Source: an uncultured Alcanivorax sp. (GTDB taxonomy: Bacteria; Pseudomonadota; Gammaproteobacteria; Pseudomonadales; Alcanivoracaceae). Taken from it: a stretch of 64,000 nucleotides of DNA. Below are positions 5,263 through 63,900 of the stretch, one piece after another. The stretch lies in contig NZ_CAMYIV010000011.1 of the NCBI RefSeq assembly GCF_947258575.1, positions 434,001 to 498,000 of the forward strand, given 5' to 3'. Every line of letters begins with the position of its first letter. Position 1 is the first letter of the stretch. The notes under the pieces were generated by a model. That model saw nothing but the letters and a program-made list of their open reading frames with translations, searched no databases and was not told the origin of the DNA. The position numbers and the translations under genes were made by a program.

Positions 5263-5346
5263 CGTAGGGTGCACTGAGCCTAAGGCGAACTGCACCGATT
5301 CGCCGCCGGAATGGTGTAGTTCGCCTTAGGCTCAGTGCACCCTACG
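5263..5346. repeat. REP-like palindrome, GTAGGGTG family (copy 1)
   Basis: Two 34-base arms starting CGTAGGGTGCACTGAGCC (5263-5296 and 5313-5346) are inverted copies with one mismatch around a 16-base centre. Related copies lie at 12540-12614 and 61630-61733. The element fills most of the gap before the glutamate dehydrogenase gene and codes for nothing. It resembles the interspersed palindromes starting GTAGGGTG that are scattered through many proteobacterial genomes. Confidence 0.85.
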
Positions 5347-12539: not shown

Positions 12540-12614
12540 CGTAGGGTGCACTGAGCCTTAGGCGAACTGCACCACCAAACGGTGGGCTGCACCCTGCGCT
12601 CAGCGCCCCCTACA
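12540..12614. repeat. REP-like palindrome, GTAGGGTG family (copy 2)
   Basis: The left arm begins CGTAGGGTGCACTGAGCC and nearly equals the arm of copy 1. The right arm (12581-12614) has drifted (GCGCTCAGCGCCCCCTAC), so the long hairpin is imperfect. It lies directly downstream of the dehydrogenase. Confidence 0.75.
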
Positions 12615-16779: not shown

Positions 16780-16867
16780 GAAGCCGCGCCCAAACGGGTG
16801 GACGCGGCTTCATAGCGTGACGCGAGCATGGGACTTCGCGAACTGTTAACTATTCACTGTTAACTGC
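16780..16867. repeat. Half copy of the gene-end inverted-repeat element
   Basis: A hairpin GAAGCCGCG / CGCGGCTTC (16780-16788 with 16803-16811) is followed by one AT-rich arm, CTGTTAACTATTCACTGTTAAC and flanks (16837-16867). The left AT-rich arm is missing. The right arm overlaps the stop codon of the DUF4442 gene (TAA at 16862-16860 on the minus strand). Related full copies lie at 45213, 60003 and 63747. Confidence 0.75.
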
Positions 16868-20409: not shown

Positions 20410-21156
20410 GTGGCGCTAATCTGGAAAACCGAGCTGCAGGGAGTGCATTACGAAGTGCGCCGTGCGGGTAGAACCCTGCGGCTTTATGCCAATGGCGTGC
20501 AACACTCCGAGTTTCACCCCAAGCGACTGCTCACCGGCAGCGTCTGGGATCTGCTCTGGTTGCCGGCCCTGCTGCACGAGCCCTCCCGGTTTCGACGGGT
20601 TTTGGTGCTGGGCCTGGGGGGCGGGTCCTTGATCCCGCCCATTCGCCAGTTACTGAACCCTGAGACGCTGGTTGCTGTGGAGCTGGACGCTGCCCATCTG
20701 CAGGTGGCCCGTGATGTGTTCGGCATGGACGCTTTCGGCGTAGAGACCTATGAAGGCGATGCCCAGGCATGGCTGCGGGCGTATCAGGGGGAACCGTTCG
20801 ATCTGATCATCGAAGACCTGTTCGCTCCCAGCAATCAGCAGGTCAGCCGGGCGGTGCCGGCAGACAAGCCGTGGCTGCAATGCCTGGCGGATAATCTGTC
20901 GGCCAGCGGTACCCTGGTGATGAACTTTGGTGACTGGAAGGAATACCGGGAAAGTCCCGCTGCCACGGAGGAGGCCATGGCCGGTTATGCCAGCCGTTTC
21001 CGGTTGTCATGCAGCGATTGCCACAATGCGATTATCGCTTTTACCCGGGAACCGGCTCGCAGTATTCATCTGCGCAGAAGGGTAGAAGCCACCACCTCCC
21101 TCAGCACTCGCGATGCCCGCGCCCGGCTGGATTATCACATCCGGCAGCTGGATTGA
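20410..21156 (+). CDS. Spermidine synthase-like methyltransferase-fold protein
   Basis: A 248-residue Rossmann-fold protein of the spermidine-synthase-like group. Residues about 60-75 show VLVLGLGGGSL, then VAVELDAAHLQVA with the acidic ligand, YEGDAQAWL and FDLIIEDLF. The N-terminal tetramer domain of true spermidine synthases is short or absent. The IIEDLFAPS differs from the DxxD of SpeE, so polyamine activity is doubtful; a methyltransferase role is as likely. It starts with GTG two bases after the DUF748 stop and should be cotranscribed with it. Confidence 0.8.
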   Translation: MALIWKTELQGVHYEVRRAGRTLRLYANGVQHSEFHPKRLLTGSVWDLLWLPALLHEPSRFRRVLVLGLGGGSLIPPIRQLLNPETLVAVELDAAHLQVARDVFGMDAFGVETYEGDAQAWLRAYQGEPFDLIIEDLFAPSNQQVSRAVPADKPWLQCLADNLSASGTLVMNFGDWKEYRESPAATEEAMAGYASRFRLSCSDCHNAIIAFTREPARSIHLRRRVEATTSLSTRDARARLDYHIRQLD

Positions 21157-21163
21157 GAGAAGC

Positions 21164-21244
21164 CAGCTACTAGCTACGAGCTGCTAGCTGCTAGTCAAAC
21201 CCAACGGGTTCTATTACTAGAAGCTAGTAGCTCGCAGCTCGTAT
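21164..21244. repeat. Gene-end inverted repeat, CTAGCTAC type
   Basis: Quasi-repetitive arms (CTACTAGCTACGAGCTGCTAG on the left, inverted at 21216-21244) flank a small hairpin AACCC-AAC-GGGTT. It fills the 92-base gap between two converging genes. It has the same architecture as the GTTAAC-type elements but different sequence. Confidence 0.7.
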
Positions 21245-21248
21245 CCTT

Positions 21249-23189
21249 TCAATCCAGCATCGACACCGAATACAGGTCCTGGCTTTCCTTTTCGGTGAGC
21301 AGTTGTGAGGTGCGTGCCTGATTGTCGTGCAACCCCACAAACAGAGCCCGATAGGTGAGTACAGCCTGAACATAATCCCGGGTTTCCCGGAAGGGAATGG
21401 ATTCAATCCAGATATCGGCGGGCACGGCCTCGTCCTCTTCCCCCAGCCAGTTGTTCACCCGGTGCGGGCCAGCGTTGTAGGCGGCCAGCGCCAATACCCG
21501 GTTACCCTTGAACTCATCCAGCAGCTCCGCCAGATAGCGGCTGCCGAGCTGGATATTCAAGTCAGCGTTTTGCAGGGTGTTGGTGGTGGGGCGGCCCAGG
21601 TTGGCATCCTTGGCAACCTTGCGGGCGGTGCCCGGCATCAGTTGCATCAGGCCCATGGCGCCGACCGGTGAACGGGCCTGGGGATTGAAGGCACTTTCTC
21701 GCCGAGCGACGGCCATGGCCAGCCATGGGTCCAGATCATGCCTTTTGGCTTGCTGTTCAAATTCGCTTTGATAGGCCGGCGGGAAACGCCAGGCGAGCAC
21801 ATCCCAGGCCTTGGCCTGGATGGATGCCTGTACTGCCAGGTCGTACCAGTGCTGCTCGAGCGCGTGCTGGGCAAGCTGGCGGACGTTGGCATCATCGTTG
21901 TGCCACATCAGCCACAGCCATTCCTGACGAGCCGCGTAATCCTCGTTCAGCTCGCGCAGCAGGCGTACACGGGCGATGGCCGGCGGCGGCGTGAAATCCG
22001 CTGACGGTTTCACCTGGGCGTTGGAGAAATGGTAGGGCTCGCCCAGGCGGTCGGCGGCCATAAAGGCAAAAAAGTTTCTGTGTCTGGAGGCTTGCCGGTA
22101 GAGGGCACGGGCCTGGTCAGGCTGGTTCAGTTCTTCCAATGCCCGGGCGCGCCAGTAGAGCCAGCGCGAATCCTGCTGCTCGCTATCAGGTAAACGGGTG
22201 ATCCACAGTTCCGCGCTCTCCCAGTCCTGTTCGATAATGGTGCGGCGGGCACGTTGGTCCAGCAGCTCTGCATCTGGATTGAGCGCCAGCCAGCTGTCCA
22301 GCCATTGGCGGTTTTCTTCGATGCCACGAATGGTGGAATACCAGGCGATGCGCCGGCCGGCATCTTGCCGCATGGCGTCATCGCGGAGGCCTTGACGACG
22401 ACTGTGATCATCGAACCATTGCCGTGCCTCAACGGTGTCCTTGTAGGCCCAGCGATGTATAGCGGCGGCTAGCAGTTGCTGGCGTTGTTCCGGCTTGATG
22501 GTGGTGGGCAGGTTGTCCACCTTGTCGGGATGACGATAAAGGGTTTCCAGCCAGTCGCTGGCGGTGTCGTAATCCGTATCCGTGAGTTTCCTGCCCAGGT
22601 AGCGAACCAGGCCATGGCTGTTGGCCTTGAAGGCCAGCAGCTGTCTTTCCCAGATTGCGGCATCATCAATGACGCCGCGGGCCTGGGCCTGATCAAACAG
22701 CGGATCACACTGATTGGGCCGTGACTGGCCGCTGGCCCAGATGTCGGCAGCGGCTTGCAGGGCACTGTCGTCACCGTTGGCCAACTTGGCCTGATAGTAA
22801 TAACACTGGCGCGCGGTGGCAGAGGGCTCGTTGCTGTTGACGGCCAGCAGGGCGTCCCATTTTTCCGCTTTGCCATAAGCCACGTTGGCCAACTGGCGAA
22901 TGTCGTTTGGCAGCGGAGAATCGGGATAGCGCCGGGCGTAGTCGTTTATCTTTTCCGGGGCCAGCTCTGGCAGGGCCGCCCGCAGCCGATGAAAATCCAG
23001 ATAGGCTTGCAGGGGGTGATCATCGCCCAGCTGTTTTTCCAGTCGGGTCAGGGTATTCCAGTCATCATTGCGTGCTGCGTCCAGTGCCTGGCGGAAGACG
23101 CCGCTATCCGTAGCGGCGACTACCAACGAAGAAAACAGACAACAGCTAAACAGTACTACAGCGCGAATGCAGGGTGCAGCGCTAACCAT
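21249..23189 (-). CDS. slt: Soluble lytic murein transglycosylase
   Basis: A 646-residue Slt70-type enzyme that cleaves peptidoglycan glycan strands with formation of 1,6-anhydromuramic ends. An N-terminal signal (VVLFSCCLFSSLVVAA) leads to a long alpha-superhelical U/L domain (about residues 30-460) and a lysozyme-like catalytic domain. The catalytic Glu is in ARRESAFNPQA, followed by SPVGAMGLMQLMPGTA and LAAYNAGPHRV, all diagnostic. The ATG at 23189 follows GTGGAGGCTCAA; a GTG four codons earlier is unlikely. It is monocistronic and convergent with the gene before it. Confidence 0.93.
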   Translation of the reverse strand: MVSAAPCIRAVVLFSCCLFSSLVVAATDSGVFRQALDAARNDDWNTLTRLEKQLGDDHPLQAYLDFHRLRAALPELAPEKINDYARRYPDSPLPNDIRQLANVAYGKAEKWDALLAVNSNEPSATARQCYYYQAKLANGDDSALQAAADIWASGQSRPNQCDPLFDQAQARGVIDDAAIWERQLLAFKANSHGLVRYLGRKLTDTDYDTASDWLETLYRHPDKVDNLPTTIKPEQRQQLLAAAIHRWAYKDTVEARQWFDDHSRRQGLRDDAMRQDAGRRIAWYSTIRGIEENRQWLDSWLALNPDAELLDQRARRTIIEQDWESAELWITRLPDSEQQDSRWLYWRARALEELNQPDQARALYRQASRHRNFFAFMAADRLGEPYHFSNAQVKPSADFTPPPAIARVRLLRELNEDYAARQEWLWLMWHNDDANVRQLAQHALEQHWYDLAVQASIQAKAWDVLAWRFPPAYQSEFEQQAKRHDLDPWLAMAVARRESAFNPQARSPVGAMGLMQLMPGTARKVAKDANLGRPTTNTLQNADLNIQLGSRYLAELLDEFKGNRVLALAAYNAGPHRVNNWLGEEDEAVPADIWIESIPFRETRDYVQAVLTYRALFVGLHDNQARTSQLLTEKESQDLYSVSMLD

Positions 23190-23304
23190 TTGAGCCTCCA
23201 CATCGTCGGGTCAACATCACAAGTCTACCGGGGCGGTAGACGCTTTGGCGTGGTGAATGTGTAAAACTTTCAGGCTGGTACAAAAGGCTGAGAGTGCGTT
23301 ATGC

Positions 23305-43809: not shown

Positions 43810-45207
43810 ATGGATATCAGTGCGGGTTGGGATCTGGTGGTGATTGGTAGTGGGCCGGCGGGTGAAGCGGCGGCCATGCAGGCGACCAAGAAAGGCCTGC
43901 GGGTAGCCATTGTCGAAGACCAGACATCCCTGGGAGGTAACTGCACACACTGGGGGACCATTCCTTCAAAGGCGCTTCGTCATCTGGTACGCCAGGTGAT
44001 TCGTACTCAGCGCAATCCTCTGCTGCGTGGCATTCTCAATCCCCGTGAAGTCCGTTGGCAGGATCTGATTGCCAGGACCCGCGAGGTCATCGATTCACAG
44101 GTCCAGGTGCGTACGGATTTCTATATCCGTAACCGGGTGACGGTGTTTGGTGGCCGAGGTGAGCTGCTTGGCAATAACGAGGTGAAGGTGGAAGACCGGG
44201 AAGGGCGGTTGCATCTGCTCAAAACCCGTAACGTTGTGATTGCTACAGGCTCAAGGCCCTATCATCCGGAGGATGTGGATTTCGAGCATCCCCGTGTCTA
44301 CGACTCAGACACCATTCTCACCATGGACCATACCCCACGCCATATCATCATCTATGGGGCGGGGGTGATCGGATCGGAATATGCCTGCATCTTTACCGGC
44401 CTGGGAATCCGGGTTGACCTGGTCAATTCCCGGCAGCATCTACTGGATTTTCTGGATACGGAAATTTCCGATGCGCTCAGTTATCACCTGCGCGAGCAGG
44501 GCTGCACCATTCGTCAGGATGAGGAATACAAGCGGGTTGTTGCCGACGATGATGGTGTCACCCTGGAACTGAAGTCCGGCAAGAAACTGCGCGCCGATGC
44601 CTTGCTGTGGTGTAACGGTCGCTCCGGTAACACTCAGGACATGGGGCTGGACGCTGTCGGCCTTGAGCCCAACAACCGTGGGCAGTTACAGGTCAACGAG
44701 CGCTACCAGACCAGTGTGGAAGGTATTTATGCCGTCGGCGATTTGGTGGGTTGGCCCTCCCTGGCCAGCGCGTCCTATGACCAGGGCCGCTTCTGTGCGG
44801 CGGCCATTGCCGGCGATGACGTCCGGCAGGTGACCGACGTGCCTACCGGCATTTATACCATCCCGGGGATTAGCAGCGTGGGGCGCAACGAGCAGGAGCT
44901 CACCGACGCCAAGGTGCCCTATGAGGTCGGACAGGCCTTCTTCCGCAATCTGGCCCGGGCGCAGATTACCGGTGAGCGGGTAGGGATGCTGAAAATCCTG
45001 TTTCACCGGGAGACCCTGGCGGTGCTGGGCATCCATTGCTTCGGCTATCAGGCCATGGAAATCGTCCATGTGGGCCAGGCCATCATGCGCCAGCCCGGCG
45101 AACAGAACACGCTGGAGTACTTTATCGACACCACCTTCAACTACCCGACTATGGCGGAAGCTTATCGGGTGGCGGCGATCAACGGGATTAACCGGATCAG
45201 GCGGTGA
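43810..45207 (+). CDS. sthA: Soluble pyridine nucleotide transhydrogenase
   Basis: SthA is a 465-residue flavoprotein that moves hydride from NADPH to NAD+ (and back). It has [17 protein letters not shown] (FAD), [19 protein letters not shown], in which the family has a single Cys and Thr instead of the redox disulfide of lipoamide dehydrogenase, then [16 protein letters not shown] (NAD(P)) and [16 protein letters not shown]. The dimer end has [27 protein letters not shown] precedes the ATG. It balances reducing power in catabolism of fatty acids and glutamate, both encoded here. Confidence 0.95.
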
Positions 45208-45212
45208 GGTAA

Positions 45213-45360
45213 TTAATAATGAATAGTGAATAATTAATAGCTGCGCGGATCAGTCTTCACTGAGCATCAAGGCAAGAGGCCGCGCTCAGCACTTGGGCGC
45301 GGCCTCTTGCGTTAATCTCCCCGCGCGTTATTAACTATTAATTCTTAACTATTAACTATC
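45213..45360. repeat. Gene-end inverted-repeat element with terminator hairpin (full copy A)
   Basis: The AT-rich left arm (TTAATAATGAATAGTGAATA, then AGCTGCGCGG) and the right arm (CGCGCGTTATTAACTATTAA and on) flank a perfect 14-base stem GCAAGAGGCCGCGC (45272-45285) with its complement (45297-45310) and an 11-base loop. It lies between convergent sthA and smr. The right arm holds the smr stop codon. Family members: 60003 and 63747, half copies 16780 and 60972. Confidence 0.85.
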
Positions 45361-45949
45361 TTTGCTGTTTCCCCGCCTCCATAAAGAATTCCCTATTGCG
45401 TTGCCGTGACTGACTGCTTTTCCGTATCAGTACATAGGTGGCGCCGCTGCCGCCCTGGTTCTGGGGGGCGGAGTGGTAGGCGAGTACCAGATGACTCTCC
45501 TCGAGCCAGTGCATGACGTAGCTCTTCAGAAAGCCAGGACGCTCGCTGTGCACCCCTTTGCCGTGGCTTATCAGGACGGAACGCAGGCCCTGTTCGTGGG
45601 CTTTCATCAGAAAAGCCTGCACCCGGTCTCGGGCGTCCATCAAACGCACCCGATGCAGGTCCAGCAGGTCCTGGGCATCATACTTGCCCAGCCGCAATTT
45701 GCGGTATACGCCTTCCTGTACGCCGTTTTTCTTGACCCCGACAATATCGGTGGGGCCAATCCGGGGGACTTGTTCCGGCACGGTGAGGGGATTGCGGTCC
45801 TTACGGTCATCCATAACGGCGGCGCGGCGCAGTTGCTCGCGCAGGCTGTCTGGCCGCTTGGTCCGGGGTAGGTTTGCGCGATTATCCGGTTTGATCGGTG
45901 TCACATCCGCCATTTCCTGGCGGAACAGATCATCGTCATTGGTGGCCAT
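45356..45949 (-). CDS. Smr-domain protein (MutS2-like nuclease domain)
   Basis: A 197-residue Smr protein like E. coli SmrA/YdaL. A charged N-terminal half carries VGVKKNGVQEGVYRKLRLGKYD. The Smr domain then shows LDLHRVRLMDARDRVQAFLM (the conserved LDLHG-like motif, here LDLHR), RSVLISHGKGVHSERPGFLKSYV, and YHSAPQNQGGSGATYVLIRK. Smr domains nick DNA or cleave RNA in known cases. The ATG at 45949 follows GGAGCAGTTCC. Its TAG stop lies inside the arm of the repeat element. Confidence 0.9.
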   Translation of the reverse strand: MATNDDDLFRQEMADVTPIKPDNRANLPRTKRPDSLREQLRRAAVMDDRKDRNPLTVPEQVPRIGPTDIVGVKKNGVQEGVYRKLRLGKYDAQDLLDLHRVRLMDARDRVQAFLMKAHEQGLRSVLISHGKGVHSERPGFLKSYVMHWLEESHLVLAYHSAPQNQGGSGATYVLIRKSSQSRQRNREFFMEAGKQQR

Positions 45950-46039
45950 GGAACTGCTCCACAAAACCCGTTAGTTCATGCTTGCATGGTACACAAAGCG
46001 GGCAGAAACTGGCAGTGAGACCCTTCCCGAGAGGTAGTT

Positions 46040-55780: not shown

Positions 55781-56653
55781 ATGACAGTGCAAGACGCCAA
55801 CACGGCCCGCCTGCTGGTAACCTGCCCGGACAAGCCGGGTATTATCAGCGCCGTCAGTACCTTTCTGTTCAACCACGGTGCCAACATCACCGATTTCGAC
55901 CAGCACTCCAGCGATGCCCGGGGTGGCACTTTCTTTCTGCGCCTGGAATTCCAGACACCGGAGCTGGACTGCTCCCGGGAGGCGCTGCGCAACAATTTCG
56001 CCAGCCGGGTCGCTGAACCTTACGGCATGCAGTGGCAGATCAGCTATGCCAGCGAGAAAAAGCGCATGGCGGTGTTGGTATCACGCCATGACCACGTGAT
56101 CATGGATTTGTTGTGGCGTACCTCGCGGGGCGACCTGCCGGCCACCATTCCAATGGTGATCAGCAATCATGATGATCTTCGCGGCGAAGTGGAGCGCTTC
56201 GGTATCGATTATCACCATATTCCGGTGAACGGCGATAACAAGGCCGAGGCGGAAGCCAAGGCGTTGGCGCTGTTGGAGGGCCAGGTAGACGTGATCGTGT
56301 TGGCCCGCTACATGCAGATTCTGAGCAGCGAGTTTGTTTCGCACCATCCGCACCGCATTATCAACATCCACCATTCCTTCCTGCCAGCCTTCGTGGGCGC
56401 CAACCCCTATCAGCAGGCCCACGATCGTGGCGTCAAACTGATCGGTGCCACCAGCCACTATGTGACAGAAGATCTGGATCAGGGGCCGATCATCGAGCAG
56501 AACGTGCAGCGGGTCAGCCATCGGCATTCCGCTGACGAGCTGAAGTCGCTGGGGCAGGACGTGGAACGGCAGGTAATGCTGCGCGCAGTTCGCTGGCACC
56601 TGGAAGACCGGGTCATCGTCGATGGCAACAAGACAGTGGTGTTTGTGAAGTAA
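55781..56653 (+). CDS. purU: Formyltetrahydrofolate deformylase
   Basis: PurU hydrolyses 10-formyl-THF to formate and THF and so balances one-carbon pools. Its 290 residues have an N-terminal ACT domain (LLVTCPDKPGIISAVSTFLFNHGANITDFDQHS) and a formyl-transferase domain with IPMVISNHDDLR, RIINIHHSFLPAFVGANPYQQAHDRGVKLIGATSHYV, and TEDLDQGPIIEQ. The Asn/His/Asp catalytic set matches purN, present at 35199. It may be cotranscribed with the AraC gene. Confidence 0.95.
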   Translation: MTVQDANTARLLVTCPDKPGIISAVSTFLFNHGANITDFDQHSSDARGGTFFLRLEFQTPELDCSREALRNNFASRVAEPYGMQWQISYASEKKRMAVLVSRHDHVIMDLLWRTSRGDLPATIPMVISNHDDLRGEVERFGIDYHHIPVNGDNKAEAEAKALALLEGQVDVIVLARYMQILSSEFVSHHPHRIINIHHSFLPAFVGANPYQQAHDRGVKLIGATSHYVTEDLDQGPIIEQNVQRVSHRHSADELKSLGQDVERQVMLRAVRWHLEDRVIVDGNKTVVFVK

Positions 56654-56662
56654 CCCCGGACA

Positions 56663-56710
56663 CTGACGCCTGACGCCAAAAACTAAAATCGCACAGGCGT
56701 CAGGCGTCAG
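56663..56710. repeat. Gene-end inverted repeat, GACGCCT type
   Basis: CTGACGCCTGACGCC (56663-56677) and its exact inverse (56696-56710) flank an 18-base AT-rich loop. Each arm is a direct repeat of TGACGCC. It fills the gap between convergent purU and the outer-membrane protein gene and may terminate both. Confidence 0.75.
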
Positions 56711-56714
56711 GTGG

Positions 56715-57386
56715 TCAGTTGCTATAACGCAGCCCGATCCCCAACGTGCCAAAGTTTTCGGATTCCAGTTGCGTGTGGCGGTAATCCGCAGTTACAGACA
56801 ACTTATCCAGCACCGGGATTGCCAGGCCTACGCCGAGATAGGGCGCAATACCACTTTGACTATCGCTGCTAGGGGCTTCCGATAGCGACAACACGGTGTC
56901 GCCATTATTATCCAGCAGGGTGCGCTGCTGACGGTTCTCCAGCTCAAAATCGTAGATATAGGCGCCGCCTTTCAAGTATACCCAACGCCTGGTCTGCCAC
57001 AGGAGCCCTACAGTGAAGCCATTGATCTCCAGCGAATCTTCTTCGTTGATGCGGACACTGCTGGCCCCGGCACCCTGTTCCGACACCGTTGGTGCTCTTA
57101 CAAATTCACTGTCGATGGAATCCTTGCTCTGACGCAGGAAACCTGCCTCCAGTCCCAGACGGGAGTCACCACCCAGATCCACACTGTTGAGCCACATGCC
57201 AATGCGTATATTCAGCCCATCGGTGGTATCAAAGCCATAGGGGGCCAGGTCAGCACGTAGCATCTGCGCCTCGGCGTAGAAGTCCACATCTGGTGGCGCC
57301 AGTTCTTCCTCGGCATGAGCCAAAGAGACAAAAGGGGAGAGCAGGGCGGCGCCAAGGCCCAGAGTCAGCGGCAATATTGTTTTCAT
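56715..57386 (-). CDS. Predicted outer-membrane beta-barrel protein
   Basis: A 223-residue exported protein. The Sec signal is MKTILPLTLGLGAALLSPFVSLAHA. The mature part alternates amphipathic strands with turns (FYAEAQMLRADLAPYGF, LGLEAGFLRQSKDS, PYLGVGLAIPVLDKLSVTADYRHTQLES) and ends FGTLGIGLRYSN, without the usual terminal Phe; Asn is last, preceded by aromatic Tyr. This fits small OmpA/OmpW-like barrels. The ligand is unknown. The ATG at 57386 gives the clean signal peptide. It is divergent from rlmM, 77 bases away. Confidence 0.8.
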   Translation of the reverse strand: MKTILPLTLGLGAALLSPFVSLAHAEEELAPPDVDFYAEAQMLRADLAPYGFDTTDGLNIRIGMWLNSVDLGGDSRLGLEAGFLRQSKDSIDSEFVRAPTVSEQGAGASSVRINEEDSLEINGFTVGLLWQTRRWVYLKGGAYIYDFELENRQQRTLLDNNGDTVLSLSEAPSSDSQSGIAPYLGVGLAIPVLDKLSVTADYRHTQLESENFGTLGIGLRYSN

Positions 57387-57463
57387 TATTGATCCAGCCG
57401 TTGTGATAAGGACAATGTAGAGCCTCAAAGAAGCTCCCATATTGTAACCAGCGCGAGACCAAC

Positions 57464-58525
57464 ATGCACAGTGACTTGCAGCACGCCCATGATGAAACCC
57501 TGCTGGGGTTGTGCCGACCCGGCTTCGAGAACGATCTGGCGGCGGAGCTGAACTACCATGCGGCGGAGCAGATGGTTGGCGGTTATCCGCGTACCGTCCC
57601 GGATAGCGGCTATGTGCTCTGGCACAGCCAACAGGGTTCCATGGCGGCACTGCTGGATAGTGGGCTGATTTTTGCCCGTAGCCTTAGCCTGGCCGAAGGG
57701 CAGTTCGTGGATATCGGCGATGACCGGATTGCTGAACTATGGCCACTGCTGAAGCAGGCGGCTCCTTTCAGTGAGGTGTTTCTGGAACATCCGGACACCA
57801 ATGACGGTCGTGAAATGCAGCGCTTTCTGCGCGGCTTTCGCAAGGCGCTGGAGCCACGTCTGAAAAAGGCTGGTCTGTTGAAACCCGGTGCCCGCCAACG
57901 GCTGCACCTGTTCTTCAGTGATTCCCACAATGGCTGGGTGACCAGCAGCCCGACCGCTATCCCACTTGCTGAAGGCGGGGTGCGACGGCTGAAATTGCCG
58001 GCTGAAGCACCCAGCCGCTCCGCGCTCAAGGTTGAAGAGGCGCTGATCCGTTTTTTTGGCAGCACGGACGGCCTCACAGCAAAAACCGCTGTGGATCTGG
58101 GCGCTGCCCCGGGCGGCTGGAGCTGGCAACTGGCCCGCCGTGGCATCAAGGTGCAGGCGGTGGATCACGGTAAACTGGATACCCGCCTGATGGATGAATA
58201 TCCGGTGGAGCATATCCACGGTGATGCCTTCACCTGGCGGCCCCGTAGCAGTGTGGACCTGGTGGTTTGCGATGTGGTGGACAAGCCGGCGCGCACCCTG
58301 CAGCAAATGGAAAAATGGCTCACCCAGGGTTGGTCCAGAGCGGCCCTGTTCAATCTCAAGCTACCCATGAAGCGTCGTTTCCAGGAGGCATGGCAATTGC
58401 TCGAGAAACTGACCGTTGCCATGGAGCGTCACGAGAATCTGGGCGTGCCCGAGATCAAGGCGGCCCAGCTTTACTATGATCGTGAGGAAATTACCGTGTG
58501 GGCTGCGTTCCACCGGGACTATTGA
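57464..58525 (+). CDS. rlmM: 23S rRNA (cytidine-2498-2'-O)-methyltransferase
   Basis: RlmM methylates the ribose of C2498 in the peptidyl-transferase centre. The 353 residues have an N-terminal THUMP-like part (about 1-95) and an RrmJ-like Rossmann domain with [19 protein letters not shown] (SAM site, about residues 208-226), [21 protein letters not shown], and [10 protein letters not shown]. These give the K-D-K-E set of 2'-O methyltransferases. Length matches E. coli RlmM. The MFS gene begins two bases after its stop. Confidence 0.93.
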
Positions 58526-58527
58526 TC

Positions 58528-59769
58528 ATGCCCACAACCCGTGCCACCCCGGCACTCTTTGCCACCCTGGGTATGCTGTACTTTGCCCAGGGTCTGCCGG
58601 CCGGCTTGTTGGGTAAGTCCATGCCGGCCCTGGCCAGGGATGCAGGCCTGTCACCGGAATGGATCGGCCTGCTGGCGCTACCGGCGTTGCCCTGGGCGCT
58701 GAAATTTCTCTGGGCACCTTGGGTAGACCGCTGGGGCAGTGGCAAACCCAATCACCGCAAGCGATGGATTCTGGCCTGCGTATTTGCCGTGATGGTGGTG
58801 CTGGCCATCACCGCACTGTTCCCCCGGGAATGGCTGTTCGGCCCGGGCTTTGTGCTGCTGGTGGCGCTGCTGTTCCTGCTCAACCTGTTCAGTGCCACCC
58901 AGGATATCGCCACCGACGGTCTGGCTACGCGCTTGTTAACGCCGGACCTGCGTGGGCTGGGCAACAGCATCCAGGTCAATGGCTACAAGATCGGCATGAT
59001 TTTGGGTAGTGGTGCGTTACTGATTTTGGTCGGTCGCTGGGGTTGGCAGGGCACCATGGCGTGCATGATCATCGCCTTGATGCTGGTTGCCCTGGTGGCC
59101 TGGCGATTCCGGGAGCCGCCAGAACCGGTGAAGCCCCGCCGGCCGGTTACCTTGCGCTGGTGGCGGCGGCAACTGACGTTATTCTGGTGGCGACCGCAAA
59201 TGGCGGTCTGGTTGCTCATTCTGCTGGGTTACAAGGTTGGCGATGGATTCGGTTCCCGTATGATCAAACCCTTTCTGGTAGATCGGCAGTGGAGCCTGGA
59301 AGGCATTGGGCACCTGGATCTGGTGTCTTCCCTGGTGGGGCTGGCCGGGGCCGCGTTGGCAGGCGTGCTGATGATGAGGATGTCGCGCAAACTGGCCCTG
59401 TTCGGTTTTGCCGGCTTGCAGGCCGTGTCCTTTCTTGGCTGGTGGATGGTGGCCAGCAGCCCGGCGGATCACTGGATCTGGCCGGTGGCCCTGTTCGAGC
59501 AATTCGCCGACGGCCTTTCCACCGTCGCCCTGTTTGTACTGATGATGGACTATTGCCGCAGCGGCCACGAGGGCAGTGACTACACCATGCAGGCCTCGGT
59601 GCAGTTGTTTGCGGTGGGAGCCTTCACCCTGGCCAGCGGCTTCAGTGTGGCCTGGCTGGGCTATGCCAGCCACTTCTTGCTGGCTGCGATTCTCTGCACA
59701 GCCGTTATAATGGCCGCCTTTTTCTGGCAAGCGCCCATTGATGGCAACGCAAAAAAGGTAACTCCATGA
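58528..59769 (+). CDS. MFS transporter, AmpG-like
   Basis: A 413-residue major-facilitator protein with about 12 membrane helices. The start [59 protein letters not shown] is very like AmpG-type permeases, which import anhydro-muropeptides. [17 protein letters not shown] is a family hallmark. Some of these instead carry acetyl-CoA or unknown solutes. It begins two bases past rlmM and its end overlaps tusA by four bases, so the three form an operon. A muropeptide role would fit slt in this window, though they are unlinked. Confidence 0.85.
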
Positions 59770-60002
59770 GCCACGACGCCCAGCACCACCTCGATGCCAC
59801 CGGCCTGCTGTGTCCGGAACCGGTGATGATGTTGCACAACAAGGTGCGCGACATGGCCCCAGGCGAGGTCCTGGAAGTGCGCGCCACCGACCCGTCCACC
59901 GAACGGGATATTCCCAAGTTCTGCCAGTTTCTTGGCCATACCTTGTTGGGGCAGGCGCAGGAAGGGGAGCTTTGGGTTTATTGGATACGGAAAAAGCAGT
60001 GA
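59766..60002 (+). CDS. tusA: Sulfurtransferase TusA
   Basis: A 78-residue TusA, which takes sulfur from IscS and hands it on for 2-thiouridine of tRNA and other thiolations. The CPxP motif is at Cys16 ([19 protein letters not shown]), and the fold ends in [13 protein letters not shown]. It starts in a four-base overlap (ATGA) with the MFS stop. The TGA stop is formed at the first bases of the following repeat element. Confidence 0.93.
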
Positions 60003-60161
60003 ACAGTTAATAGTTAACAGTGAATAGTTGCGCGCCCAAGCGCATTGAAAGTTGAACGCAAAGAGGCCGCGTCCATGGCTTGGACGCGGCCTCTTTGCGT
60101 TGTGGATTCACTCACGGATCAATCCGCGTAGCTTTTCACTATTCACTGTTAACGATTAACT
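60003..60161. repeat. Gene-end inverted-repeat element with terminator hairpin (full copy B)
   Basis: AT-rich arms (ACAGTTAATAGTTAACAGTG on the left; CACTATTCACTGTTAACGAT on the right) flank a perfect 21-base stem starting AACGCAAAGAGGCCGCG (60055-60075) and its complement (60081-60101) with a five-base loop. The stem contains the AGAGGCCGCG core of copies at 45213 and 63747. It lies between convergent tusA and the gene at 60168. Confidence 0.88.
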
Positions 60162-60167
60162 GCATTT

Positions 60168-60854
60168 TCAACTCCTTGCCAGCATGGCCACCGCCGCCAG
60201 TGCTTCCGGGTCGCGTTCTTTCAGTTTGTTGGCGATGCCGTGCTGAAAGAAGTAGCGGAAGTCCGGCAATTGTTGCGCCTGGATCAGGCATTTGGCGCCG
60301 GGTAGTACCGGGGTTTCCATGGTGCCGCTTTCATCGGCCACCATAGCGGCCAGGGTGCCGTCTGCGGTCAGCCGCCAGCTCACCACTTCCATCAGGCTGA
60401 TGGTGTGAAAATCATCCTCGGAAAATACTGCGTGAGTGCCGATGGTATCGGGGATTTCCTGAATCATCTGTTGGCCGGGCTGGGGTTTGCCAAAGAAGCC
60501 CAGTGCCGCATCCAGCTCCTGTACCTTGTGCTCGGGAGCCTCAACGAACAGGTAGTCGCTTTCCGGCAGCCGGTAGCCTTCCCAGCGGCCGTTCAGAGGA
60601 TCTGCCAGCGCCATGGCGGTCACCGGTTCTTTCAGCCAGGGAACCATGGCCACGGTATCGCCATTGGCGAGACGAGCCCAGGCCAGGATTTTCAGGGAGA
60701 AGAGTTTATCGGGGTGGTGGTCGTTGGCGTACAACAGCTCAATGCCATCGTATTCCGGGGAAAGACGCAAAATGGGGGGCTGTGCCGCTTTGCGGCGTGG
60801 AGAGAAAGGAACCACATTGTTCCCGCCAGGGTGTTGCCGGTGAGCCTGAGTCAT
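60168..60854 (-). CDS. Conserved hypothetical protein, 228 residues
   Basis: I recognise no named family, though it looks like a conserved gammaproteobacterial protein. It is soluble and acidic, with repeated strand-turn patterns: YDGIELLYANDHHPDKLFSLKILAWARLANG and FHTISLMEVVSWRLTADGTLAAMV are similar, so two related modules may exist. No signal or membrane segment. The ATG at 60854 follows GGGAGGTGCCC. It ends six bases from the repeat element. Base use is like its neighbours. The 286 bases upstream hold only a repeat arm at 60972. Confidence 0.7.
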   Translation of the reverse strand: MTQAHRQHPGGNNVVPFSPRRKAAQPPILRLSPEYDGIELLYANDHHPDKLFSLKILAWARLANGDTVAMVPWLKEPVTAMALADPLNGRWEGYRLPESDYLFVEAPEHKVQELDAALGFFGKPQPGQQMIQEIPDTIGTHAVFSEDDFHTISLMEVVSWRLTADGTLAAMVADESGTMETPVLPGAKCLIQAQQLPDFRYFFQHGIANKLKERDPEALAAVAMLARS

Positions 60855-60971
60855 GGGCACCTCCCGGTACAAGTCCTTGGCGCCGCCAGCCCGACACACA
60901 GTGTTCGTTCTGCACGGCCCGTTAATTCACGTTAGCCTGTACGAGGCGGCCATGCAAGCCGGTGCAGAAAG

Positions 60972-61010
60972 CAATTGATAGTTGATAATGGATAATTGAT
61001 AGCTGCGCGG
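60972..61010. repeat. Single AT-rich arm of the gene-end element
   Basis: CAATTGATAGTTGATAATGG followed by GATAATTGATAGCTGCGCGG resembles the left arm and CTGCGCGG end of copy A (45213). No hairpin or second arm follows, so it is a fragment or half copy. Confidence 0.6.
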
Positions 61011-61629: not shown

Positions 61630-61733
61630 CGTAGGGTGGATTAGCCTAAGCGTAATCCACCTGCTGCCTGACTGGGCAACCTGTCATCACGCCAAAACGA
61701 TGGTGGATTACGCCCAGGCTAATCCACCCTACG
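61630..61733. repeat. REP-like palindrome, GTAGGGTG family (copy 3)
   Basis: Arms CGTAGGGTGGATTAGCC... (61630-61661) and the inverse (61702-61733) are about 32 bases with few mismatches, around a 40-base centre. The first eight bases equal those of the copies at 5263 and 12540; the rest (GGATTAGCC...AATCCACC) is the variant widespread in proteobacterial genomes. It lies between converging genes. Confidence 0.85.
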
Positions 61734-61756
61734 GGAGACGCGGGACAGGGATGATG

Positions 61757-63128: not shown

Positions 63129-63725
63129 ATGGGTGATCTTGGCGGTAAACCACAGGGCCAAACAAAGGCGGCTACCATACCGCAAAGCGCTGTCCGGGGG
63201 CACCGTAGCGAGGACCTGGACAGACTGTTTAGGGCCACTTTTTTTCATTCCCACACCACTGTGCTGGAAGGTGGCGCGGACGAGCCTGTATATCGTCCGG
63301 GCAACCCCCATCGTATCTGTTATACCCGCGATTATTTCCGCAGCGCCCTGCACGAAATCGCCCACTGGTGCGTGGCGGGTTCGGCGCGGCGTCAGCAGGA
63401 AGATTATGGCTACTGGTATGCCCCGGACGGACGCAATGCCGAGCAGCAGGCGCAGTTCACCCGGGTAGAAGTGTTGCCCCAGGCTTATGAGGCGCTTTTC
63501 TGCGCTGCCTGCGGCCATCCGTTCCGGGTGTCATTGGATAACCTGAATGGGGATGCGGGGGATGAGAGGGACTTTGCAATGAAGGTGCATGACAAGGCGC
63601 GCTCCTTGGTAAAAAACGGCCTTCCCGAACGCCCCCGACTCTGGTGTCAGACCCTGGCAGATTTCTACGGTCGCACGTCTATTTCCCTGGAGGAGGGGCT
63701 TGGCGAGGTTTTTGATTGCCCTTGA
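63129..63725 (+). CDS. epmC: Elongation factor P hydroxylase
   Basis: EpmC (YfcM) hydroxylates the lysylated lysine of EF-P. Diagnostic segments are DEPVYRPG, the metal motif LHEIAHWCVAGSARR (HExxH-like), EDYGYWYAPDGRNAEQQAQFTRVEVLPQAYEALFCAA, and FRVSLDNLNGD. Its 198 residues slightly exceed E. coli EpmC (about 182) because of the N-terminus; homology begins near residue 27, and no better start codon is seen in frame. No epmA or epmB is in the window, although EpmC needs them. The stop lies before a repeat element. Confidence 0.9.
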   Translation: MGDLGGKPQGQTKAATIPQSAVRGHRSEDLDRLFRATFFHSHTTVLEGGADEPVYRPGNPHRICYTRDYFRSALHEIAHWCVAGSARRQQEDYGYWYAPDGRNAEQQAQFTRVEVLPQAYEALFCAACGHPFRVSLDNLNGDAGDERDFAMKVHDKARSLVKNGLPERPRLWCQTLADFYGRTSISLEEGLGEVFDCP

Positions 63726-63746
63726 TCAGTGGAGTGGAGCGTTTCA

Positions 63747-63900
63747 GTTAACAGTGAATAGTGAACAGTTAACAGCGACGCGACCGGGCTTTTCTTGTGC
63801 TGAAACGAAAGAGGCCGCGCTCAAATTGTGGGCGCGGCCTCTTTCGTTTCTGAATGTGCTGACCCTTGGCGCGAGCTGTTAACTGTTAACTATTCACTGC
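63747..63900. repeat. Gene-end inverted-repeat element with terminator hairpin (full copy C)
   Basis: Left arm CAGTTAACAGTGAATAGTGA and on (63747-63783), right arm GCTGTTAACTGTTAACTATT and on (63873-63900). The centre is a perfect 19-base stem starting GAAACGAAAGAGGCCGCGC (63802-63820 with 63832-63850), 11-base loop. It lies between epmC and the converging partial gene. Confidence 0.88.

Follow-up and report, generated by a model that had tools for sequence, protein, structure and literature searches.

The 64,000-nucleotide stretch of Alcanivorax DNA analysed here (the window) contains three full copies of a non-coding, multi-copy element of about 155 bp with inverted ends, located at 45211–45361, 59997–60163 and 63745–63900. 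We call these elements cassettes and refer to the three copies as 45213, 60003 and 63747, the positions at which the initial annotation had placed them. It had also put all three between convergent genes, and the flanking ORFs confirm this. The 45213 cassette lies between an oxidoreductase resembling dihydrolipoamide dehydrogenase (43810–45207, plus strand; labelled lpd here) and Smr (45356–45964, minus strand). The 60003 cassette is flanked by the convergent ORFs 59766–60002 (plus), which we take to be TusA-like, and 60168–60899 (minus), and the TGA stop codon of the left gene (60000–60002) falls within the left arm of the cassette. At 63747, EpmC (63129–63725, plus) converges with a minus-strand gene that continues past the end of the window.

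A cassette begins with an array of about four 7-bp units (the arm). Next come a short step that varies, CGCG, about 29 nt of spacer and a long GC-rich hairpin with the core AGAGGCCGCG; in the second half, after the hairpin, a spacer and CGCG lead to a second 7-bp array, which is inverted. Two half copies had also been reported, and these turned out to be different parts of the element, hairpin and right arm at 16780 and left arm with CGCG only at 60972. Two further inverted pairs of 7-mer arrays are related to the arms and do not contain the AGGCCGCG core. The features of the window are listed below; the arm dialects are described further on.

16780–16867, no strand: half cassette, hairpin GAAGCCGCG/CGCGGCTTC and dialect A right arm (sequence reading)
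21161–21246, no strand: related inverted 7-mer pair of GCTACTA-like units, without the AGGCCGCG core (lag-7 arrays)
45211–45361, no strand: full cassette 45213, arms mainly dialect C (RTKAATA), between lpd and Smr
45269–45313, no strand: 19-pair hairpin at the centre of cassette 45213 (folding)
56663–56721, no strand: related inverted 7-mer pair of CTGACGC units, without the AGGCCGCG core (lag-7 arrays)
59997–60029, plus strand: left arm of the 60003 cassette, four dialect A (GTKAAYA) units (sequence reading, arm-pattern match)
60030–60034, no strand: left CGCG step of the 60003 cassette, seen also in the copies of genomes G005 and G010
60055–60101, no strand: central hairpin of the 60003 cassette, 21 pairs, 5-nt loop, core AGAGGCCGCG (folding)
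60125–60128, no strand: right CGCG step of the 60003 cassette (sequence reading)
60131–60163, minus strand: right arm of the 60003 cassette, inverted dialect A 7-bp units (sequence reading, arm-pattern match)
60972–61009, plus strand: half cassette, dialect B left arm (ATTGATA/GTTGATA/ATGGATA) and CGCG only (sequence reading)
63745–63900, no strand: full cassette 63747, dialect A arms, downstream of EpmC
63802–63850, no strand: 22-pair hairpin at the centre of cassette 63747 (folding)

In the 16780 half, which sits between two minus-strand genes, one G-C pair of the usual core is replaced by A-T; A. jadensis and G005 have this half at the same site. The 60972 half sits between divergent genes, is common to A. 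jadensis and is missing in G005 and G010. At this site (60971) the latter two genomes have a 17-base stretch with a short palindrome and the genome from which the window was taken (the source genome) has about 150 bp; no target duplication was visible by eye when the source was compared with G005 and G010. Both related 7-mer pairs are flanked by convergent ORFs, namely 20410–21156 (plus) and 21249–23201 (minus) for the first and 55781–56653 (plus) and 56715–57650 (minus) for the second. The first of these junctions differs by species, with GCTACTA arms in the source and G005, CGAGTGA arms in G010, and in A. jadensis a REP together with a further inverted repeat at the orthologous site. The window further contains a REP-like inverted repeat, GTAGGGTGGATTAGCC...GGCTAATCCACCCTAC, at 61630–61740 between a GGACT gene and MatE, and GTAGGGTGCACTGAGCC repeats, present as an inverted pair at 5263–5341 and as a further copy at 12540–12573; a GTAGGGTGCACTGAGCC repeat also adjoins a cassette in stretch L138.

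The initial annotation described arms built from GTTAAC units. The arms are indeed built of repeats, but the real unit is a tandem one of 7 bp: self-match of the arm zone at lag 7 was 0.54 in the source genome (124 halves) compared with 0.27 in shuffled sequence, and 0.53 compared with 0.28 in A. jadensis (76 halves). Three units of the arm consensus RTKRAYA, with at most one mismatch, gave 14 matches in the window versus 0.00 expected from 100 shuffles. Within 867 kb of A. jadensis we counted 144 lag-7 stretches; lags 5, 8 and 10 gave 6, 4 and 7, the coding-favoured lags 6, 9 and 12 gave 65, 68 and 72, and lag 14 gave 83. The corresponding numbers in 387 kb from other genera were 9 stretches for lag 7 and 2, 2 and 4 for lags 5, 8 and 10. 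Pure 7-mer arrays (GAGCTAC, TAGCTCG) of approximately 45–50 units were also noted in A. jadensis (L202:1–317 and L220:13891–14241), where they adjoin ordinary A/T-tract terminators.

Arm units occur in the dialects A (GTKAAYA), B (ATKGATA-like), C (ATKAATA) and G (GTKGACA), and as class II units (GCTNCAA, GTTNCAA and GTTGAAA). Every dialect, class II included, was seen with the same hairpin core; at A. jadensis L217:9271, the usual core carries ACGCAAC-type arms, one more dialect. Genomes have their leanings, the source towards A and A. jadensis towards B (15 of 33 classifiable cassettes), and dialect C was found at 5 sites read in G012 and dialect B at 7 sites read in G004. Left and right arms belong to the same dialect in 51 of 54 source cassettes (37.3 expected) and in 32 of 33 A. 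jadensis cassettes (10.2 expected). These counts omit cassettes in which an arm falls outside the classification (8 of 62 and 5 of 38, respectively). Within a dialect, two arms from one cassette resemble each other no more closely than arms taken from separate cassettes do, since the fraction of permutations reaching at least the observed value was 0.25 for source A (n = 43), 0.64 for A. jadensis A (n = 8) and 0.74 for A. jadensis B (n = 15). This combination fits ends that are drawn from a shared dialect pool. Selection for arm-to-arm pairing is unsupported for the same reason, and palindrome correction by template switching was rejected because it predicts arms that are near copies of each other, which within a dialect they are not. 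Dialect matching is not obligatory, as a rare mixed case demonstrates: a G010 cassette (#58; L292, the site of source L155) has units of dialect G in its left arm and of dialect C in its right arm.

For genome searches we used the core pattern AGGCCGCG, 4–30 nt, CGCGGCCT, with the reversed pattern as a control. The source genome contains 72 exact hairpin cores versus 0 for the control, and the shared-hairpin family postulated from the window therefore extends far beyond the five copies on which it was based. The arm analysis included 62 of the 72 cassettes, and 60 had flanks long enough for mapping to A. jadensis. The exact core was present in all 17 Alcanivorax genomes searched (12 to 72 copies; control 0 or 1), and beyond the genus 16 of 40 genomes had between 1 and 5 matches each (control 0 to 3). 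Arms matching the dialect A pattern were detected in 15 of the 17 genus genomes, in two genomes (G025 and G032) of a second genus, and in 5 of 369 genomes drawn from the class, the source genome included. At the sites read in the second genus, the interiors framed by the arms mostly look unrelated (other terminators, REP-like repeats); at site L102, one half resembles the hairpin core. Carriage by a plasmid or phage found no support, since searches of 72,556 plasmid and 50,697 phage records gave no match to window positions 59996–60168. In the window, a tRNA alone exceeded the Rfam gathering score, and the cassettes match no Rfam family.

A preference for gene 3′ ends, as expected from the initial annotation, was evident throughout the family. 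Among the 99 cassettes classified in the source and A. jadensis, 70 lie between convergent and 29 between tandem genes, and none between divergent genes (source, 43, 18 and 0 of 61, with one more at an edge; A. jadensis, 27, 11 and 0 of 38). Gene orientation was taken from a simple coding-score gene caller, which misassigned one side (window 63811). The background of 795 adjacent gene pairs comprised 143 convergent, 145 divergent and 507 tandem pairs, and those with gaps of 100–1000 bp comprised 88, 101 and 181, respectively. Where the genes converge, a median of 63.5 nt (source) and 64 nt (A. jadensis) separates the stop codon from the core. This equals the length of arm, step and spacer, so that the stop codon tends to border on the arm or to lie within it. 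Arms were present on 135 of 169 sides facing gene 3′ ends and on 27 of 30 sides facing 5′ ends (shuffles, 0 of 100). Since they face both gene ends, they are the termini of the element itself, independent of stop codons. Stop-codon arrays as the general purpose of the arms were rejected on this ground and also because class I arms are stop-rich and class II arms (GCTNCAA, GTTNCAA) are not, as judged by eye.

The three hairpins fold into stems of −37.7 to −43.8 kcal/mol for 55 nt (z −7.2 to −11.3). Selection for stem structure had been suggested from the three copies; covariation is real, but it is modest and mostly found next to the core. Scoring covered those 85 of 100 cassettes whose core is 29 nt long, with pairs 0–7 fixed by the search pattern. 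Position −2 was paired in 76 cassettes (56.4 expected), −3 in 73 (64.6 expected), −4 in 55 (44.0 expected) and +8 in 72 (60.5 expected). Beyond −5 the outer stem showed a small pairing excess, which was largest at −9 (57 versus 48.0 expected). A paired change to GAAGCC/GGCTTC was found in the 16780 half and in the source and G005 cassettes at the L339 site.

Two properties of intrinsic terminators, a stable GC-rich stem and a position at gene 3′ ends, are found in the cassettes; few U's follow the stem, and there is no U-rich tract of the kind expected. A consensus terminator scan (27 sites versus 17.1 expected in 19 kb) gave none at the three hairpins. By contrast, A and T tracts do accompany a comparable stem in A. 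profundi and SAT93. Like bidirectional intrinsic terminators, the cassettes are placed between convergent genes and combine a GC-rich stem with a symmetric design; they differ by their weak U-tract, their 7-mer arms and their replacement as units. Two-way termination by the central hairpin is a plausible function, and it is the best reading of its place and shape.

We compared the cassette sites between species. Of 29 source cassettes with both flanks mapping to one A. jadensis stretch, 28 had their site occupied in A. jadensis, a proportion that is biased upward because the A. jadensis stretches were mostly chosen around its own hairpins. The sole A. jadensis site without a cassette (#31) contains a REP-like repeat instead. 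At the 60003 junction a cassette is present in 10 of 11 loci read, source included, the exception being NORP25; locus L045 was too short to score. Of the 17 genus genomes, 12 carry core and arms at the lpd–smr junction, one arm being short in some of them; G004 has a decayed cassette and G013 heptamer arms without the core, neither core nor arms were seen in G006 and G015, and G009 reads N. By eye, the class of a locus is the same in the source and A. jadensis for 5 of 5 class II and 23 of 23 class I loci, so that replacement does not draw on the whole pool. None of the compared loci offered a clean empty site, and inspection by eye for target duplication showed none at 60971.

The tenants of these sites change. 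The 26 scored source/A. jadensis pairs comprised 7 kept, 1 kept in inverted orientation and 18 replaced cassettes. Spacer similarity was bimodal, with values of 30–56 for kept pairs, 32 for the inverted pair and at most 15.1 for the other 18, where replaced means a score under the 99th percentile for unrelated pairs, 15.7 (their mean is 2.6 and their sd 5.4). Three of the 29 pairs (#7, #29 and #31) were left out since one side had no exact core; at #7 and #29 a cassette is present in A. jadensis and, by eye, its dialect has changed. The arm dialect or sub-dialect, again by eye, changes in 17 of 18 replaced pairs (not in #38) and in 0 of 8 kept pairs. In the window, the 60003 cassette is shared by the source, G005 and G010, and A. 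jadensis, which by flank identity is the closest of the three to the source, has another. At 45213, G005 and G010 share a dialect A cassette, the source has dialect C and A. jadensis dialect B. The source, G005 and G010 also share the 63747 cassette, which in G010 is interrupted by another heptamer-armed insert; A. jadensis has a REP-like repeat there.

Fifteen of 17 replaced loci were found in at least one of G005 and G010, and #5 and #8 gave no third species. Mean flank identity was 93.3% between the source and A. jadensis (17 loci) and 89.6–91.6% for the other pairs (13–14 loci). Sharing runs against this kinship at #17, where the source goes with G005 and A. jadensis with G010, and at #56, where the source goes with G010 and A. 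jadensis with G005. Sharing of A. jadensis with G005 at #43 and with G010 at #57 is not against kinship, as a replacement in the source suffices for the former and replacements in the source and G005 for the latter. Altogether 28 of 90 species pairs at 29 loci share a cassette (spacer score of at least 25), a proportion that is no rate because 17 of the loci were picked for a difference between source and A. jadensis. Six of the 28 shared pairs, at 5 loci, are inverted. Median cassette identity was 93.0% for the 28 shared pairs and 71.5% for non-shared pairs; shared cassettes diverge about like their flanks, whose medians range from 90.5 to 92.0%.

Copies at other loci were found when 18 interiors (14 from A. 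jadensis, 4 from the source) were searched against the 17 genus genomes. A. jadensis #25 recurs at two unrelated A. jadensis loci, with 88% and 86% identity across 112 nt, and A. jadensis #58 at two more (88% and 85%), and the flanks of these copies do not match. A. jadensis #48 is present at the orthologous site of G014, and the source, G005 and G010 share another cassette; A. jadensis #15 is present in inverted orientation at the orthologous site of G001 (flanks by eye in both cases). Three of the four A. jadensis copy sites were checked, and at all of them the source, G005 and G010 hold a different cassette; G009 has the same cassette at one, a different one at another and is unreadable at the third. 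The copy sites are already occupied in relatives, whichever copy is older. As the copies are only 85–88% identical, no recent jump was caught. The comparisons thus show the cassette behaving as a unit from one arm to the other: it is replaced whole, recurs at unrelated loci, is inverted and is at some loci shared across species against kinship, which indicates that cassettes move as units. The proposal of a mobile family holds in this respect, and the comparisons support the view that mobility mostly amounts to replacement of whole cassettes at kept addresses and less to scattering to new sites.

The explanation to which we give about half of our confidence is that the cassettes are symmetric non-coding elements of Alcanivorax, moved by a recombination or transposition activity that reads their arms and acts in trans. 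The central GC-rich hairpin would end transcription arriving from either side, and termination would make a cassette useful, or at least harmless, between mostly convergent genes. The inverted 7-bp arrays would be the recognition ends for the activity in trans; recognition specificity would drift, giving dialects, and the putative activity would prefer sites already holding a cassette or a terminator. A more specific version, which we advance tentatively and regard as doubtful, assumes a putative enzyme that reads 7-bp arrays of drifting dialect and swaps terminator cassettes into occupied sites in either orientation, the same arm grammar framing other terminators and repeats in Alcanivorax and the sister genus. 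The mostly unrelated interiors under the same arms in the second genus are an ill fit to one fixed element.

A real possibility, if on the whole an unlikely one, is that no dedicated enzyme is involved and that plain homologous recombination between species and strains, by importing gene-end regions, swaps the alleles of old terminators at fixed loci, with RecA-dependent flips between the arms. Such recombination would agree with addresses that are kept between species, with the sharing against flank kinship at #17 and #56, and with A. jadensis #48 in G014 and #15 (inverted) in G001, both at sites orthologous by eye. The flanks themselves argue against it, as identity beyond 70 nt was at most 2 points higher where the cassette is shared (medians 92.0, 91.2, 91.4 and 90.5% versus 90.0, 90.8, 90.5 and 90.0% where it is not), so that the recombination tracts would have to be short; moreover, the inversion of 6 of 28 shared pairs and the copies at unrelated loci would each need extra steps.

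Static ancestral terminators that drift fast in place, with rapid divergence mistaken for replacement, are improbable. They would account for the kept positions and for the unchanged locus class between the source and A. jadensis (5 of 5 class II, 23 of 23 class I), but orthologous pairs fall into two modes of similarity, shared cassettes do not outpace their flanks in divergence, and copies at unrelated loci as well as some cross-species sharing exist.

It is very improbable, in our view, that the cassettes form a REP/REPIN system and owe their movement to a RAYT (Y1) transposase. Palindromes at gene ends recall such a system, and PF01797 is present in 16 of the 17 genus genomes, the one without it being G015, whose arms look decayed at the 8 sites read. 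Nevertheless, 0 of 16 PF01797 loci examined (one per genome, of 60 genus hits) was framed by a cassette, lag-7 arrays within approximately 1.5 kb of 3 of the 16 (L242, L244 and L250) did not frame the gene, and G018 has PF01797 hits but no arm-pattern match. REP, BIME and REPIN elements are likewise palindromes with many copies at gene 3′ ends; the cassettes, in contrast, are about 155 bp long with arms and showed no RAYT association in the 16 loci examined. To our knowledge, period-7 arms are no feature of REP.

DNA uptake sequences are mostly single and far more numerous. That the cassettes are inverted uptake sequences doubling as terminators, as in Neisseria, is scarcely credible and was rejected: inverted pairs at gene ends and species-dominant dialects are common to both, but the cassette core is rarely single (GAGGCCGCG was unpaired in 0 of 6 cases in the window and in 14 of 90 across 867 kb of A. 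jadensis, a sample selected for the most part around hairpins) and its dialect resides in the arms, not in the hairpin.

Bacterial MITE-like small repeats include Correia/NEMIS, ERIC and RUP. With these, the cassettes have in common that they are short, non-coding, multi-copy and intergenic, with inverted ends and copies at different loci. They differ in that their ends are 7-bp arrays in interchangeable dialects around a conserved central hairpin, in their turnover by replacement at kept addresses, and in that no target duplication was seen by eye and no parent transposon, or transposase tied to the arms, at the 16 of 60 PF01797 loci examined. Period-7 repeats are already known, and the REP, MITE and uptake-sequence families share single traits with the cassettes, which are closest to REP/MITE-like palindromes. 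TAACTGA heptamer repeats are described (MacGregor 2015, PMC4679880) from Beggiatoaceae, Cyanobacteria and Bacteroidetes as direct repeats, mostly just upstream of start codons in the genome studied, with one inverted case among 170 sets. They resemble the cassettes in having related 7-bp tandem units, an intergenic location and an unexplained mechanism of spread, whereas cassettes are inverted pairs that frame a hairpin, mostly at gene ends and in many dialects. Dialect-matched inverted heptamer arrays framing swappable terminators were not found described in the open-licence literature searched, in which the arm sequences as text also gave no match; this leaves their absence in print unproven.

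Bacterial gene ends are usually viewed as static. Alcanivorax, a genus of oil degraders, appears to keep many terminator-like sites at which the address is fixed and the sequence is exchanged as cassettes. If swapping into occupied sites is true, the set of gene-end terminators would be continually re-tenanted at fixed addresses. The cassettes offer a natural comparison of terminators and of the non-disruptive spread of short repeats, and the dialect-matched heptamer arms are a concrete handle for finding a protein that reads them.

The arms are also relevant to the way in which heptamer arrays spread among other bacteria, for which there is as yet no explanation. Arrays of GTGAATA units were found in three genomes from other families of the class, G304, G302 and G398, with 157, 45 and 5 pattern matches, respectively. 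In seven stretches of G302 and G304 that were read, the units form direct arrays, with one inverted partner (L275). In G181, the reversed control pattern matches 63 times, perhaps because a separate family of heptamer arrays is present there.
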